A stretch of 64,000 nucleotides of DNA, taken from the NCBI GenBank assembly GCA_009843525.1, contig VYDH01000036.1, forward strand, positions 186,001 through 250,000, given 5' to 3'. Made by a program: the position numbers and the translations under genes. The stretch's first letter is position 1. Every line of letters begins with the position of its first letter. Below are positions 10,790 through 61,172 of the stretch, piece by piece. The stretch comes from Acidimicrobiales bacterium (GTDB lineage: Bacteria; Actinomycetota; Acidimicrobiia; Acidimicrobiales; Poriferisodalaceae). The notes beneath the pieces are model-generated. The model was not told the origin of the DNA, did no database searches, and was given only the letters and a program-made list of their open reading frames with translations.

Positions 10790-11923
10790 TCAGTAGATGC
10801 CCGGAACGATGCGATAGGGGACTCGCTCCCGGTACTCCGCCCATTTCTCGGGGCCGTACTTCTGCGCGCAGCGCTTGTCATCGTCCATCTGCCGGTAGCT
10901 GAACAGCGCGAAGACATAGATCAGGTAGAGCCACGCCCAGAGGTTGCCGAAGTGGCCCCAGGCCACGGCGAGGCCCAGCCCGTAGAACACTTCGCCCATG
11001 TAGTTGGGATGGCGGGATGCGCCCCAGAAGCCGCTGCAGAGGATCTTGCGCTCGCCGGCTTCGATGATCTGGGGCTTGATGCCCAGAAAGGTGCGCTCGG
11101 GCCATCGCTTGAACGTGTACTTCTGCATGTTGGCACCACGGCTGATGCACCAACCCGCCAGGTACAGCGCCGGTGCGCCGATCAGCCAGAGCGCGCGCCA
11201 GCCCCCTGAGTGGCCCGGATCCGGGTGCGCTGCCATGCCCCACATCGGGATGATGAACATCCAGCCGTAGACGAACAGGCCGCCCCAGAACATCTTGAAC
11301 CCGAGGCGCTCGTAGATGATGTCGAACGTGTAGAGCTGCACTCGCTCGAACACGAAGTAGTCGAAGACGTAGAGGGTGAAGAACGCTGCGAAGAGGTAGG
11401 CGCCCGGATTCGGGTTGTCGACGTTCTCGTAGTGCCAGACCGCGCCGGAGAAGGCGTTGAGCGACAGCATCGTGCCGCCCACCACGTAGAAGTACATCTT
11501 GAGATCGATGCGGTTGTTGAAGAACTGCATCTCCTGGGCGCGGCCGAACCAACATGCCAGGAACTTGTTCTTGACCTCGCCTTCGGGCTGGCTGAACACC
11601 GCAATCAGGGTCATGACGACGGCCAAGGCCGTTCCGCCGGCGACGGCGTAGAGCGATGAACGGTAGAACCAGTCGCGTGGCATGCCCGTCAGCTCGAACC
11701 ACCACAGCACCTGTGCCACGAGAAACACCAGCAGCCCGTTGAGGCGGTAGCTGCGGGGCTGGCCCGTCTTGGTGTCGATGACGTATCCAGGGACGCGCTT
11801 GCCGGGAATGACCATCTGCAGCACGAAGAATGCGGCCATCACGAACAGCGGTGTGAGAAATCCCAGTACCGCCTCGCCCGCGGTCAGCTCGACCAAGTGC
11901 CCGATGCCGAGGCGCTCGAACAT
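10790..11923 (-). CDS. ERG4/ERG24-like (sterol reductase family) membrane protein
   Basis: 377 aa, start ATG 11923 with GGAAGGGAGG 6 bases upstream. Polytopic membrane protein with about nine to ten hydrophobic segments. Family landmarks: N-G-L-L-V-F in the N-terminal third, F-F-N-N-R-I-D-L-K-M near 136-145, F-W-G-A-S-R-H-P-N-Y-M-G-E near the C-terminus, then K-Y-G-x-E-K-W-A-E-Y and the closing V-P-Y-R-I-V-P-G-I-Y. These match the NADPH-dependent sterol C14/C7/C24 reductase family. The substrate in this bacterium is unknown and no sterol-forming gene is visible here. It is the downstream member of a tandem pair of equal length, 39 bases after its paralogue. Confidence 0.82.
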   Translation of the reverse strand: MFERLGIGHLVELTAGEAVLGFLTPLFVMAAFFVLQMVIPGKRVPGYVIDTKTGQPRSYRLNGLLVFLVAQVLWWFELTGMPRDWFYRSSLYAVAGGTALAVVMTLIAVFSQPEGEVKNKFLACWFGRAQEMQFFNNRIDLKMYFYVVGGTMLSLNAFSGAVWHYENVDNPNPGAYLFAAFFTLYVFDYFVFERVQLYTFDIIYERLGFKMFWGGLFVYGWMFIIPMWGMAAHPDPGHSGGWRALWLIGAPALYLAGWCISRGANMQKYTFKRWPERTFLGIKPQIIEAGERKILCSGFWGASRHPNYMGEVFYGLGLAVAWGHFGNLWAWLYLIYVFALFSYRQMDDDKRCAQKYGPEKWAEYRERVPYRIVPGIY

Positions 11924-11962: not shown

Positions 11963-13096
11963 CTAGAAGACGCCGGGGATGATCCGGTACGGCACCCGTG
12001 CCTGGTATTCGGCCCATTTCTCTTCGCCGTATTTCTCGGCGCAGACCTTGTCGTCTTCGAATTGGCGGGGCACGAAGAAGGTCACGATGAGGATCAAGTA
12101 GCTCCAGGCCCACAGGTTGGTGAAGTGCCCGAACACCAGCGCGTTGGACAGCCCGTAGAGGGCTTCGCCGGAGTAGCCGAAGTGCCTCGCCTTCCCCCAG
12201 AACCCGCTGCAGAGGATCTTGCGGTCGCCGGCCACGATGATCTCCGGCTTGATGCCGAGGAAGGGGCGATCGGGCCAGCGCTTGAAGGTGTACTTCTGCA
12301 TGTTGGAGCCACGTGAGATCACCCAGCCCGCCACGAACAGCACGGCGCTGCCGGTCAGCCAGAAGTACATCCAGCCGCCGACCCAGCCTGGGTCGGGATG
12401 TTTCGCCAAGCCCCACAGCGGCAGCACGAACATCCAGCCCCACACGAACGGTCCGCCCCAGACGAGCTTGAATCCGACGTTCTCGTGGATGAGGTCGTAG
12501 GTGTAGAGCTGCACCCGCTCCCACACGAAGTAGTCGAAGACGTAGAAGGAGTTGATGGCGACGTAGAGGATCAGGCCGGGGTTGACGTCATCGACGAAGT
12601 CGACATGCCATGCGAGTCCCGACCAGGCGTTGAGCGACAGCATCGTGCCGCCGACGATGTAGAAGTACATCTTGAGGTCGAAGCGGTTGTTGAAGAACTG
12701 CAGCTCCTGCGCACGGCCGAGATAGAACGCCTTGAGCGGGTTCGTGTGCTCGCCGGGGGGCTGGGTGAACACCACGAAGATCGTCGCGATGGCGGCGATG
12801 ATCACGCCGCCTGCTATCGCGTACATGGTCGACTCGTAGAACCACTCCCGCGGCAGGCCGAACAGCTCGAACGCCCAGATGATGTGCGCGAGCACGAATA
12901 CCAAGATGCCGTTGAGCCGGTAGCTCCGGGGTTCGCCGGTCTCGCGGTTGGTGGCGTATCCGGTCACGCGCTGGGCGGGCAGGATCATGTGCGCCACGAA
13001 TGCGAAAGCGCAGACGAACAGCGGTGTGAGGAACCCCAGCACCGCCTCACCGGCGGTCAGCTTGAACAGATGGTCGATGCCGAGCCAGTCGATCAT
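11963..13096 (-). CDS. ERG4/ERG24-like (sterol reductase family) membrane protein, paralogue
   Basis: 377 aa from ATG 13096. A second in-frame ATG 9 bases further upstream sits directly on the ribosome site GAGAAGGG, which therefore fits the inner start better; it also makes both paralogues exactly 377 aa. It shares the full set of landmarks with the gene downstream (L-N-G-I-L-V-F, F-F-N-N-R-F-D-L-K-M, S-G-F-W-G-K-A-R-H, K-Y-G-E-E-K-W and R-I-I-P-G-V-F) but differs at R-H-F-G-Y-S-G-E, where the paralogue has the family-typical R-H-P-N-Y-M-G-E. This may mean a shifted substrate or cofactor preference (inference). It diverges from the selenoprotein candidate. Confidence 0.82.
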   Translation of the reverse strand: MIDWLGIDHLFKLTAGEAVLGFLTPLFVCAFAFVAHMILPAQRVTGYATNRETGEPRSYRLNGILVFVLAHIIWAFELFGLPREWFYESTMYAIAGGVIIAAIATIFVVFTQPPGEHTNPLKAFYLGRAQELQFFNNRFDLKMYFYIVGGTMLSLNAWSGLAWHVDFVDDVNPGLILYVAINSFYVFDYFVWERVQLYTYDLIHENVGFKLVWGGPFVWGWMFVLPLWGLAKHPDPGWVGGWMYFWLTGSAVLFVAGWVISRGSNMQKYTFKRWPDRPFLGIKPEIIVAGDRKILCSGFWGKARHFGYSGEALYGLSNALVFGHFTNLWAWSYLILIVTFFVPRQFEDDKVCAEKYGEEKWAEYQARVPYRIIPGVF

Positions 13097-13225
13097 GAGG
13101 TGCATCCCTTCTCACGCATGTATGCGCCAACCGCCAGTATTGCCTTCAGCGGCGGGCACCTGAGGGACTCGACGGGGCATCCGGCGGTAGTGTCCGGCGG
13201 CACCGGCAGAAAGGTGAGGCAACCG

Positions 13226-13714
13226 ATGAAGCTCGACAGCGGAGACATGTTCCCCGAGCTCAGCCTGAGCGACCTTGAAGATGAGCAAGTCACGATCCCC
13301 GACGTCTTCGGTGACGGCTGGGGCGTGGTGCTGGTGTACCGGGGCCACTGGTGACCGTACTGCCGTCAACAGTTGGTTGACTTCGACGGGGCCGGATCGC
13401 TGCTCAAGACGCTCGGCGCCAGCGTCGTGGCGCTCTCAGTGGACGACAAGGACACCACGCAGCGGCTCTCAGACGGTTTGCAGCTGCGCACGGTGAAGAT
13501 GCTGCACAGCGCCGACATGGCCGAGGTGTCGTCGCTCACCGGGGCGTACACCGAGGAAGCGCGGGGCATCCTGCACGCCACCGGGTTCATTCTGGCGCCG
13601 GGCGGAAAGGTCGCCCAAGCGTGTTATTCGACCGGGCCCATCGGTCGGTTCACCGCGCTCGACACGATGCGCATCATCCGCTTCGTGCAGCAGATGCGGG
13701 CGCGGCAGGGCTAG
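13226..13714 (+). CDS. Peroxiredoxin-like (AhpC/TSA family) protein, probable selenoprotein with in-frame UGA (Sec43)
   Basis: Thioredoxin-fold peroxidase-like protein, 162 aa if the in-frame TGA at 13352-13354 is read as selenocysteine. The frame is open from ATG 13226 (ribosome site GAAAGGTGAGG) to that TGA and continues in the same frame to TAG 13712-13714. Homologues of this Prx-like family carry Y-R-G-x-W-C-P-Y-C at this point; here the sequence reads Y-R-G-H-W-U-P-Y-C (U43, C46), so UGA replaces exactly the catalytic cysteine. Downstream family features are intact, including the T-G-F-I-L-A-P-G-G-K segment and the S-T-G-P-I-G-R-F-T-A-L-D segment. A SECIS-like hairpin follows the UGA. 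Decoding needs selA, selB, selC and selD elsewhere in the genome. A nonsense mutation or base error is possible but less likely given the hairpin. Confidence 0.87.
13365..13381 (+). promoter_or_regulatory. Candidate bacterial SECIS hairpin downstream of in-frame UGA
   Basis: Directly seen: GTCAAC (13365-13370), loop AGTTG, GTTGAC (13376-13381), a perfect 6-bp stem. It starts 10 bases after the UGA at 13352-13354, and the apical loop begins 16 bases after it, with G at loop position 2. An outer CCGT/ACGG pairing (13355-13358 with 13385-13388) can extend it. Spacing, 17-base size and an early loop G match the known bacterial SECIS pattern recognised by SelB. Confidence 0.8.
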
Positions 13715-13716
13715 GG

Positions 13717-14067
13717 CTAACCACCCACGATGAACCGCTGGTGCGTGCCCTCAGAGATGAGCGTGTCACCGTGGGTGACCTTGATGTCGAAGACGAGGCG
13801 GCGGCGGTCGACTTCGCTGATCTCGCCCGACACCACGACGTCCTCGCCCGAGGACACAGCGGCTTGGTGGCTCACGCAGATGTGGATGCCGACGGTTGTC
13901 TGACCCTCGTCGAGGTGCGGCTGGACGCCGAACAGGCACGTGCCTTCGATCAGGCGGACCATGTCGGGCGTGGACAGCACCTTGTTGGGCAGGTGCGGCG
14001 GCGACATCTCGTCGGTGACCCGGTGGGTCTCGCTTGTGGTGAATCCGACTTCGATGGCTCCGCTCAT
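13717..14067 (-). CDS. FlK-like hotdog-fold thioesterase
   Basis: 116 aa, single hotdog domain, start ATG 14067. It resembles fluoroacetyl-CoA thioesterase FlK: S-T-P-D-M-V-R-L-I-E-G at 32-42, T-T-V-G-I-H-I-C-V-S-H at 57-67, and the closing G-T-H-Q-R-F-I-V. Residues matching the FlK triad are Thr33, Glu41 and His67. The family hydrolyses small acyl-CoA thioesters; the natural acyl group here is unknown and fluoroacetate need not be involved. It ends 2 bases after the peroxiredoxin-like gene on the other strand, so the two are convergent. Confidence 0.82.
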   Translation of the reverse strand: MSGAIEVGFTTSETHRVTDEMSPPHLPNKVLSTPDMVRLIEGTCLFGVQPHLDEGQTTVGIHICVSHQAAVSSGEDVVVSGEISEVDRRRLVFDIKVTHGDTLISEGTHQRFIVGG

Positions 14068-14131: not shown

Positions 14132-14632
14132 ATGCCTGAGCTGCATCCGCAGTGCGAACCGCTCGCCCCGCTGCTGGGAACTTGGCAGGGCGGCGGTACC
14201 GGCCAGTACCCGACGATCGACGACTTCGCCTACACCGAAGAGTTGACGTTCGGCCACGTCGGCAAACCGTTCGTGTCGATGATCCAGCGCACGCGCAACC
14301 GCGATACCGGCGAGCCGCTGCACTCGGAGGCGGGCTACCTGCGCGCCCTGCCCGGGGGAGACTTGGAACTCGCGCTGGCGCAGCCGTCGGGTGTTGTCGA
14401 GATCTGCCTTGGCACGGTCCGCACTACCCCCGACGGCTTGGCGATCGAACTCCGCAGCTCCCAGGTCGGCCTCACGCCTAGCGCGAAAGAGGTGACCTCG
14501 GTACGGCGGGAGCTGAGCATTGTCGGGCTGGGGGCCGGTGGCGTCACGCTGATCTCCGAGCTCTGGATGGCCGCTGTGGGGCACCCCGAGCTCCTGCACC
14601 ACCTGCGCGGCGAGCTGACCAAACAGGCCTGA
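14132..14632 (+). CDS. Nitrobindin-like (THAP4 C-terminal/DUF1794) heme-binding beta-barrel protein
   Basis: 166 aa. The N-terminal signature G-T-W-Q-G-G-G-T-G-Q-Y-P-T at 16-28 is diagnostic of the nitrobindin barrel, and a C-terminal H-H-L-R-G-E-L segment supplies a candidate axial histidine (His157). Characterised relatives bind ferric heme and isomerise peroxynitrite to nitrate. A role in nitrogen-oxide stress would fit the nearby peroxidase-like gene, but there is no operon link since their strands and spacing differ. Confidence 0.85.
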   Translation: MPELHPQCEPLAPLLGTWQGGGTGQYPTIDDFAYTEELTFGHVGKPFVSMIQRTRNRDTGEPLHSEAGYLRALPGGDLELALAQPSGVVEICLGTVRTTPDGLAIELRSSQVGLTPSAKEVTSVRRELSIVGLGAGGVTLISELWMAAVGHPELLHHLRGELTKQA

Positions 14633-60689: not shown

Positions 60690-61172
60690 ATGGCGATTGA
60701 GGTCGGCGACCAGATTCCCGATGTGACACTGCGAGTACTGGACGAGGGCGGCATGCCTGCGCCCGTGCAGTCCGGCGAGATGCTGGGCAGCGGCAAGGTG
60801 GTGCTGTTCGCAGTGCCGGGCGCATTCACCCCAGGCTGCAGCAACGTCCACCTCCCGGGGTACATCGAAGGTGCGTCCGAGCTTGCGGGCAAGGGTGTCG
60901 CCAAGATCGTCTGCGTCTCGGTCAACGACGCGTGGACCATGAACGCCTGGGCGCAGGCCCAAGGCGCAGAAGGCATCGAGATGGCTGCGGACGGCAACGG
61001 CGACTTCGCCGAGGCCATGGGCTTGGTCATGGATGGCTCGGGCTTCGGCCTGGGTTCTCGCTCCCGGCGCTATGCGGCGGTCATCGAGGACGGGACCGTG
61101 ACTGCGCTCGAGGTCGAGCCGGCCGGTGCCGTCGACGTGTCGAGCTGCGCCTCGATTCTGGGCAAGCTCTGA
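60690..61172 (+). CDS. Prx5-type peroxiredoxin
   Basis: 160 aa from ATG 60690. The peroxidatic motif P-G-A-F-T-P-G-C-S places the active cysteine at 50, followed by N-V-H-L-P-G-Y, as in the Prx5/AhpE-like redoxin group; a C-terminal S-S-C (Cys153) may act as resolving cysteine. It reduces peroxides using thiol reductants. It uses an ordinary cysteine, in contrast to the UGA-containing peroxiredoxin-like gene at 13226. Confidence 0.92.
   Translation: MAIEVGDQIPDVTLRVLDEGGMPAPVQSGEMLGSGKVVLFAVPGAFTPGCSNVHLPGYIEGASELAGKGVAKIVCVSVNDAWTMNAWAQAQGAEGIEMAADGNGDFAEAMGLVMDGSGFGLGSRSRRYAAVIEDGTVTALEVEPAGAVDVSSCASILGKL

Follow-up and report, generated by a model that had tools for sequence, protein, structure and literature searches.

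The locus

The DNA analysed here, referred to as the window, is a 64,000-nucleotide stretch of an Acidimicrobiales genome whose assembly comprises 3.34 Mb and is 93.8% complete. A single reading frame spans positions 13226-13714 and ends in TAG. Its only interruption is a TGA at codon 43 (13352-13354), so that the frame is otherwise open across this codon, as the original prediction had it. With TGA read as selenocysteine (Sec), the product has 162 residues. The features of the locus are as follows:

10790-11923 and 11963-13105, minus strand: two tandem look-alike genes; the second matches ERG4/ERG24 sterol reductase (125.6 bits, a score for the second only)
13210-13219, plus strand: ribosome-binding-like sequence AAAGGTGAGG, 6 nt before ATG 13226, recognized from the sequence
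13226-13714, plus strand: putative selenoprotein gene, peroxiredoxin (Prx)-like with an AhpC/TSA fold, 162 aa, TGA as Sec, stop TAG (evidence: PF00578, 16-row alignment)
13352-13354, plus strand: TGA, candidate Sec codon 43, in W-U-P-Y-C
13361-13363, plus strand: TGC, Cys46, putative Sec partner in UxxC; its aligned counterpart in peroxiredoxins is the peroxidatic Cys, and it is invariant in 16 rows
13365-13381, plus strand: candidate SECIS hairpin, GTCAAC - loop AGTTG - GTTGAC, 16 nt from TGA to loop (evidence: recoding, codon constraint, model criteria)
13371-13382, plus strand: alternative apical hairpin AGTT - GGTT - GACT, mutually exclusive with the preceding one; part of the minimum free energy (MFE) fold with 13363-13367/13385-13389
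13717-14067, minus strand: protein matching the fluoroacetyl-CoA-specific thioesterase family FlK (96.3 bits), convergent, ending 3 bases from the selenoprotein stop
14132-14632, plus strand: THAP4-like heme-binding beta-barrel protein (137.8 bits), possibly a redox-related neighbour
60702-61058, plus strand: redoxin with P-G-A-F-T-P-G-C and no stop inside

The gene appears to stand alone, since its upstream ERG4/ERG24-type and downstream thioesterase neighbours lie on the other strand. A promoter and terminator scan found none. The sequence AAGGTG occurs at the same upstream place in eight of nine public relatives, locus L030 being the exception. The neighbourhood is also kept: across the nine public loci, both ERG4/ERG24-type genes are present in all nine, the thioesterase and the THAP4-type gene in eight each, and a monooxygenase in seven. 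L031 is cut by a contig end, and L025 (thioesterase) and L030 (monooxygenase) lack a match although they are longer.

The translated product matches PF00578 (AhpC-TSA) at 59.6 bits (E 3.9e-16; cut-off 26). No NCBIfam model reached its cut-off on this protein; the best, PrxQ, scored 30.9 against a cut-off of 260, and PrxU scored 20.4 bits against 270. Among PDB sequences, the top match is a Bcp-type thiol peroxidase. The redox motif reads Y-R-G-H-W-U-P-Y-C, and a gene caller that treats TGA as a stop would be expected to lose this active site or to shorten the product.

A hairpin under codon-level constraint

Ten bases separate the TGA from a perfect 6-bp stem (arms GTCAAC 13365-13370 and GTTGAC 13376-13381) with the loop AGTTG, which is the hairpin with a loop G that had been predicted. 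When the amino acids were held fixed in 20,000 synonymous recodings, with codons drawn by the usage of eight window open reading frames (ORFs), a Watson-Crick stem of at least 6 bp with a 4-6 nt loop and SECIS-like spacing had p = 0.0003. For a loop starting RGTY, the same test printed 0.0000 (20,000 trials). The region comprises codons 47-53 (U+4 to U+10; CGT CAA CAG TTG GTT GAC TTC), and the hairpin is built of rare codons, CGT, CAA, TTG and GTT making up 0.09, 0.09, 0.06 and 0.04 of their sets in the eight window ORFs.

Comparison among relatives locates the constraint in the same place. In ten close rows, synonymous variation touched none of the seven columns in codons 47-53 and 94 of 147 elsewhere. 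Across 19 Sec rows of the order (L048 standing for the genus of the window; L049-L055 and L068 dropped), codon identity given the same residue was 0.954 (95.4%) in U+4 to U+10 versus 0.437 (43.7%) elsewhere. This stretch ranks top of 146 seven-codon windows, and none of the 121 counted columns outside it reached 85%. The predicted SECIS of the family is unusually well conserved.

The published bacterial SECIS (bSECIS) model, in the available text of PMC13188914, has an apical loop of 3-9 nt, an upper stem of 4-16 bp, 16-37 nt from UGA to loop, a G at loop position 1 or 2 that in most cases has G or U after it, and an MFE of at most -7.5 kcal/mol. The hairpin agrees with this in its 5-nt loop, its 6-bp stem and a loop G with U after it (AGUUG), and its spacing of 16 nt, with the loop starting at the 17th base, lies at the lower limit. 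The 49-nt region has an MFE of -13.7 kcal/mol, a value obtained with the alternative hairpin in the fold; on its own, the 6-bp stem gives -6.9. Total folding energy across 13352-13400 is ordinary (z 0.14; equalled or bettered by 98 of 200 shuffles).

Two mutually exclusive structures are candidates for the fold that SelB would recognize. An outer pairing had been expected to extend the 6-bp hairpin, but CCGTC 13363-13367 and GACGG 13385-13389 compete with it, since they share bases 13365-13367, and they form part of the competing fold. In the window, the 6-bp stem has a fold probability of 0.33 versus 0.65 for the competitor, and six of the 18 other Sec rows adopt another fold as their 45-nt MFE structure. 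All 19 rows are able to form the 4-bp AGUU/GACU hairpin, which never varies but is weak by itself (-0.4 kcal/mol). The 6-bp stem is stronger (-6.9 kcal/mol) and is paired in 95.6% of cells (all but 5 of 114), and the paralogue L047 presents an AGTTG loop at an equal distance on a 6-bp stem of different sequence. For these reasons we prefer the 6-bp stem over the 4-bp hairpin as the SelB element. Its covariation is weak, with one both-sided change and a score reached by 60 of 500 shuffles, because the element hardly varies. Where codon 48 is CAC (L022, L063, L067 and L071), the predicted fold shifts register, keeps the loop AGUU and bulges one base.

In the Ktedonobacter and Dictyobacter rows the same RQQL residues are encoded mostly by other codons (one of six shared in each of three), and no RGTY-loop stem forms. 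Such a stem was found in none of 11 Cys or Thr controls; one of them (L043) has a 4-bp any-loop stem (p 0.039).

Selenocysteine machinery

The search for selA, selB, selD and a tRNA-Sec gene, proposed together with the original prediction, located all four in the genome, each over its cut-off. The selA (381 bits) and selB (277 bits) genes adjoin on contig 32, and selD scores 352 bits. The tRNA-Sec scores 66.3 bits against a gathering score of 47 (RF01852), and ARAGORN calls it tRNA-SeC with anticodon tca. Control genomes, too, give hits to the RF01852, selB and selD models, for the most part under cut-off, and one tRNA-Ser in the genome studied here exceeds the RF01852 cut-off; the weight therefore rests on the ARAGORN anticodon and on the over-cut-off scores. 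In the class-wide sample, selA is over cut-off in 256 of 395 genomes. Since selA is this common in the class, its co-occurrence with the TGA is by itself a modest argument.

Distribution and selection

A scan of public genomes gave 12 loci, nine actinobacterial and three from Ktedonobacter and Dictyobacter (Chloroflexota; L033-L035). Codon 43 is TGA in all nine actinobacterial loci, which stand in metagenome-assembled genomes titled Acidimicrobiia, Acidimicrobiaceae or Microthrixaceae, and TGT (Cys) in all three Ktedonobacteria loci. In the class-wide sample, 4 of 395 genomes, the gene's own included, held a relative at E 1e-10 or better. A 16-row profile at 1e-15 or better recovered a relative in 39 of 397 genomes sampled across the order, and loci were obtained for 30 of these 39 matches. 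Exactly one TGA interrupts the relative in 31 genomes of eight families, eight relatives have no stop, and none has TAA or TAG. The gene is patchy; nine listed genomes of its own family but other genera had no match in the order-wide sample. The relative in G530 matches weakly (8.3e-16) and is possibly a different paralogue. A pattern scan of viral contigs matched no stretch.

The site was inspected in 27 of the 31 TGA rows, the window gene included, and is always W-U-x-x-C; in the two of eight no-stop rows inspected (G256 and G468) it is Cys. The in-frame TGA aligns with Cys in homologues, as known for bacterial selenoproteins. The readthrough product, for which an alignment with homologues had been suggested as a check, matches the AhpC/TSA domain, and Cys stands at the Sec column in the inspected relatives without TGA. 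Of the 31 TGA genomes, 30 have a selA match, in one case a below-cut-off fragment, and the genome that lacks it, G656, is 73% complete. Among genomes whose relative has no stop, five of eight have a selA match. The three Ktedonobacter and Dictyobacter genomes all have selA, yet their protein has Cys, so possession of the Sec machinery need not entail the Sec form. Several of the public loci and order genomes share selA contig positions (e.g. G398 and G460), so the two sets are not independent.

In a tree of 32 rows, one branch with 100/99 support divides 27 Sec rows from 5 Cys rows. The close copies L024-L030 and L032, the duplicates L049 and L023, L065 and L068 (missed by the pattern) and the nine order matches without loci were left out of it. 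Rooting is by midpoint only, and the split carries no direction of change between Sec and Cys. With 31 genomes carrying TGA and eight without a stop, the family offers natural Sec/Cys comparisons at a single column.

Selection acts on both sides of the TGA. In ten close rows, dN/dS was 0.23 before the TGA and 0.12 after it. The window gene and L022 give an upstream dN/dS of 1.29, a value from a diverged pair over a short stretch.

These data bear on whether the TGA could be a plain nonsense mutation in the gene of a Cys protein, through pseudogene formation or sequencing error. A single substitution would indeed turn TGT or TGC into TGA. The same TGA, however, recurs in all nine public actinobacterial loci and in 31 of the 39 relatives from the order (overlapping sets), TAA and TAG are absent, purifying selection holds on both sides, and the neighbourhood is kept. 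Inactivating changes in relatives had been named as a ground for doubt; the TGA proved conserved, and no other stops were present inside the gene. Pseudogene and sequencing error are accordingly rejected, and we assign them next to no probability.

It is very improbable that the UGA is read through by a near-cognate tRNA as another residue, or that a functional 42-aa peptide is made and an internal TTG serves as start codon for the remainder. TTG 13373 does open a mechanical ORF of 113 aa. Against both versions stand the Sec machinery, the SECIS-type hairpin and the Sec/Cys exchange column, and a product made in two pieces would be broken at its redox motif. We also considered a generally altered code and rejected it, given that the gene's final stop is itself TGA in L030, L032 and L022, besides the TGA at the Sec site.

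The gene at 13226-13714 thus very probably encodes a selenoprotein, which its motif and fold suggest to be a peroxiredoxin-like, thioredoxin-fold oxidoreductase. The TGA is conserved, Sec and Cys exchange at its column, the genome holds the machinery genes, and the hairpin is constrained at the nucleotide level; from these observations we infer Sec insertion. A ribosome reaching the UGA at 13352-13354 would meet SelB carrying Sec-tRNA(Sec) and attached to the hairpin at 13365-13381, and SelB would insert Sec at residue 43. Translation would then continue to the TAG, giving a product with the W-U-P-Y-C site.

Redox chemistry

A Sec-dependent peroxidase had been predicted, with the TGA placed exactly at the active cysteine of the family. 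The selenoprotein part of this proposal is supported. The position needs restating: codon 43 corresponds to the first Cys of the subfamily CxxC, but in true peroxiredoxins this is the Thr/Ser position, and their peroxidatic Cys aligns with Cys46. In the alignment to the structurally characterized Bcp-type peroxidase, Sec43 falls on the Ser of SxxC and Cys46 on the peroxidatic Cys; Ala118 occupies the Arg column. Two ordinary peroxiredoxins of the same genome have Thr at Sec43, Cys at Cys46 and Pro at Arg39, and the Arg of one of them falls on His117. The window also holds an ordinary Cys peroxiredoxin, as stated in the original prediction (the redoxin at 60702-61058).

A catalytic Arg is a feature of true peroxiredoxins. 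In the window protein its column holds Ala118 or His117, as judged by sequence alignment, and the stretch R39-G-H-W-U43-P-Y-C46 departs from the true-peroxiredoxin site PxxxTxxC/U. With Sec at the Thr/Ser of TxxC and the peroxiredoxin Arg missing, the name peroxidase is unproven.

The main rival reading is that the protein is a selenoprotein and also a true peroxidase, in which Sec43 (or Cys46) would act as the peroxidatic residue in the reduction of H2O2 or organic hydroperoxides. Membership in PF00578, PrxQ as the best NCBIfam model (though far below cut-off) and the Bcp-type thiol peroxidase as best PDB match all point that way, and Sec peroxiredoxins with TxxU exist (PMC13188914, available text). 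We nevertheless consider this unlikely, given that Sec takes the T rather than the C of TxxC, Arg39 occupies the Pro column, the catalytic-Arg column holds other residues, and the Sec peroxiredoxins described in the available text of PMC13188914 and PMC1088965 are TxxU.

A Sec/Cys thiol-disulfide enzyme appears to fit the motif better. The protein combines an AhpC/TSA domain with the UxxC motif U43-P-Y-C46, as do Prx-like UxxC thiol:disulfide oxidoreductases, and the published grouping into TxxU and UxxC together with the alignments favours a Sec43/Cys46 pair that exchanges with disulfides. In the catalytic cycle that we infer, Sec43 and Cys46 would probably form a selenol/thiol pair engaged in disulfide exchange, and the resulting selenenylsulfide would be reset by a thioredoxin-type reductant.

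Relation to known selenoproteins

By 2005, Prx-like UxxC selenoproteins had been recognized as a family (PMC1088965), and a UGC-containing Prx-like class was known in 2008 (PMC2398784). The published grouping, in the text and tables available, sets TxxU peroxiredoxins apart from the UxxC 'Prx-like' proteins, which later tables name thiol:disulfide oxidoreductases. The window protein resembles these Prx-like selenoproteins (PF00578, UxxC/UxxU) in its AhpC/TSA fold and in a UxxC with Sec first (PMC1088965, PMC2398784 and PMC13188914, as far as their available text goes). They correspond to the Sargasso Sea 'Prx-like' and GOS 'Prx-like 1' families, with which the comparison is by published description. 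Unlike them, the branch studied here stands in Acidimicrobiia-type actinobacteria, has the motif Y/F-R-G-x-W-U-x-x-C and a nearly invariant SECIS, and reaches the cut-off of no NCBIfam model. Its motif and fold place the window gene's group as a further branch of the published Prx-like UxxC class.

Other known proteins are more distant. The peroxiredoxin-like cd02970/AhpC-TSA_2 selenoprotein is likewise of AhpC/TSA type with Sec first in its motif, but the motif, in the part of the listing available, is UxxS rather than UxxC. Sec peroxiredoxins and NCBIfam PrxU belong to the same superfamily and carry Sec last in TxxU, whereas Sec in the window protein occupies the Thr column. The CPYC protein of Ktedonobacter and Dictyobacter is 38-41% identical to the window protein and shares YRGHW-C-PYCRQQL, but has Cys (TGT) for Sec and lacks an RGTY-loop stem. 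Among the open-access titles and abstract openings listed, none reported the actinobacterial branch described here; the string 'Acidimicrobi' is absent from the text of PMC13188914, PMC9312934, PMC5029168 and PMC12013277.

Further selenoprotein candidates in the genome

The genome has 12 AhpC-TSA matches, all over cut-off. Six of the 12 contain one TGA and none contains TAA or TAG. Each TGA directly follows a Trp, in WUPYC (the window gene), WUPPC (two), WUGC, WUPAC and WUPNC. The five further candidates with an AhpC/TSA fold, which have W-U-x-x-C or W-U-G-C inside the Pfam match, are:

L037, contig 23, minus strand
L038, contig 2, plus strand
L044, contig 18, minus strand
L046, contig 18, plus strand
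L047, contig 21, minus strand

By its motif, L038 would belong to the UGC-containing Prx-like class. In L037 the frame continues into an additional region.

SelD (L020, C5:68078-69031) carries one in-frame TGA and is likely a selenoprotein itself; the TGA, seen by eye, lies in G-A-G-U-A-C-K-L, the usual SelD Sec/Cys site. Loops can be drawn after the other five AhpC/TSA TGAs (GGTCG, GGTCT, GGTC, GGTC and AGTTG) and after that of SelD (GGTTC). All start R-G-U-Y, each having been picked from several hairpins, among which longer ones are listed in L038, L044 and SelD and equal-length ones in L046 and L047. Shuffling gave p values for an any-loop stem of 0.18 (L037), 0.27 (L038), 0.62 (L044), 0.55 (L046), 0.10 (L047) and 0.12 (SelD), and for an RGTY loop of 0.04, 0.06, 0.06, 0.06, 0.005 and 0.02 in the same order. 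Individually, these hairpins are weak evidence.

A formate-dehydrogenase-type protein (L076, C19:155223-157091) has a TGA in S-C-N-R-T-U-H and scores 622 bits, under its cut-off of 666. The candidates in the genome thus number at least eight: six AhpC/TSA proteins, SelD and the formate-dehydrogenase-type protein. Organisms with at least six selenoproteins are termed selenoprotein-rich in the available text of PMC5029168. An earlier survey (PMC1794560, 2006; available text) describes Actinobacteria as rich in selenoprotein families (12), with Symbiobacterium the one selenoprotein-rich organism listed for them.

We tentatively suggest, as a possibility short of an expectation, that an Acidimicrobiia-type lineage has converted much of its AhpC/TSA redox set to Sec (6 of 12, in one genome) and so become selenoprotein-rich. 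Sec would stand beside the ancestral peroxidatic Cys position, in an enzyme distinct from Sec peroxiredoxins and with a SECIS nearly frozen across eight families of the order. In L076, a GGTCT stretch follows the TGA, and the part that corresponds to model positions 1-50 is located about 2.6 kb beyond.
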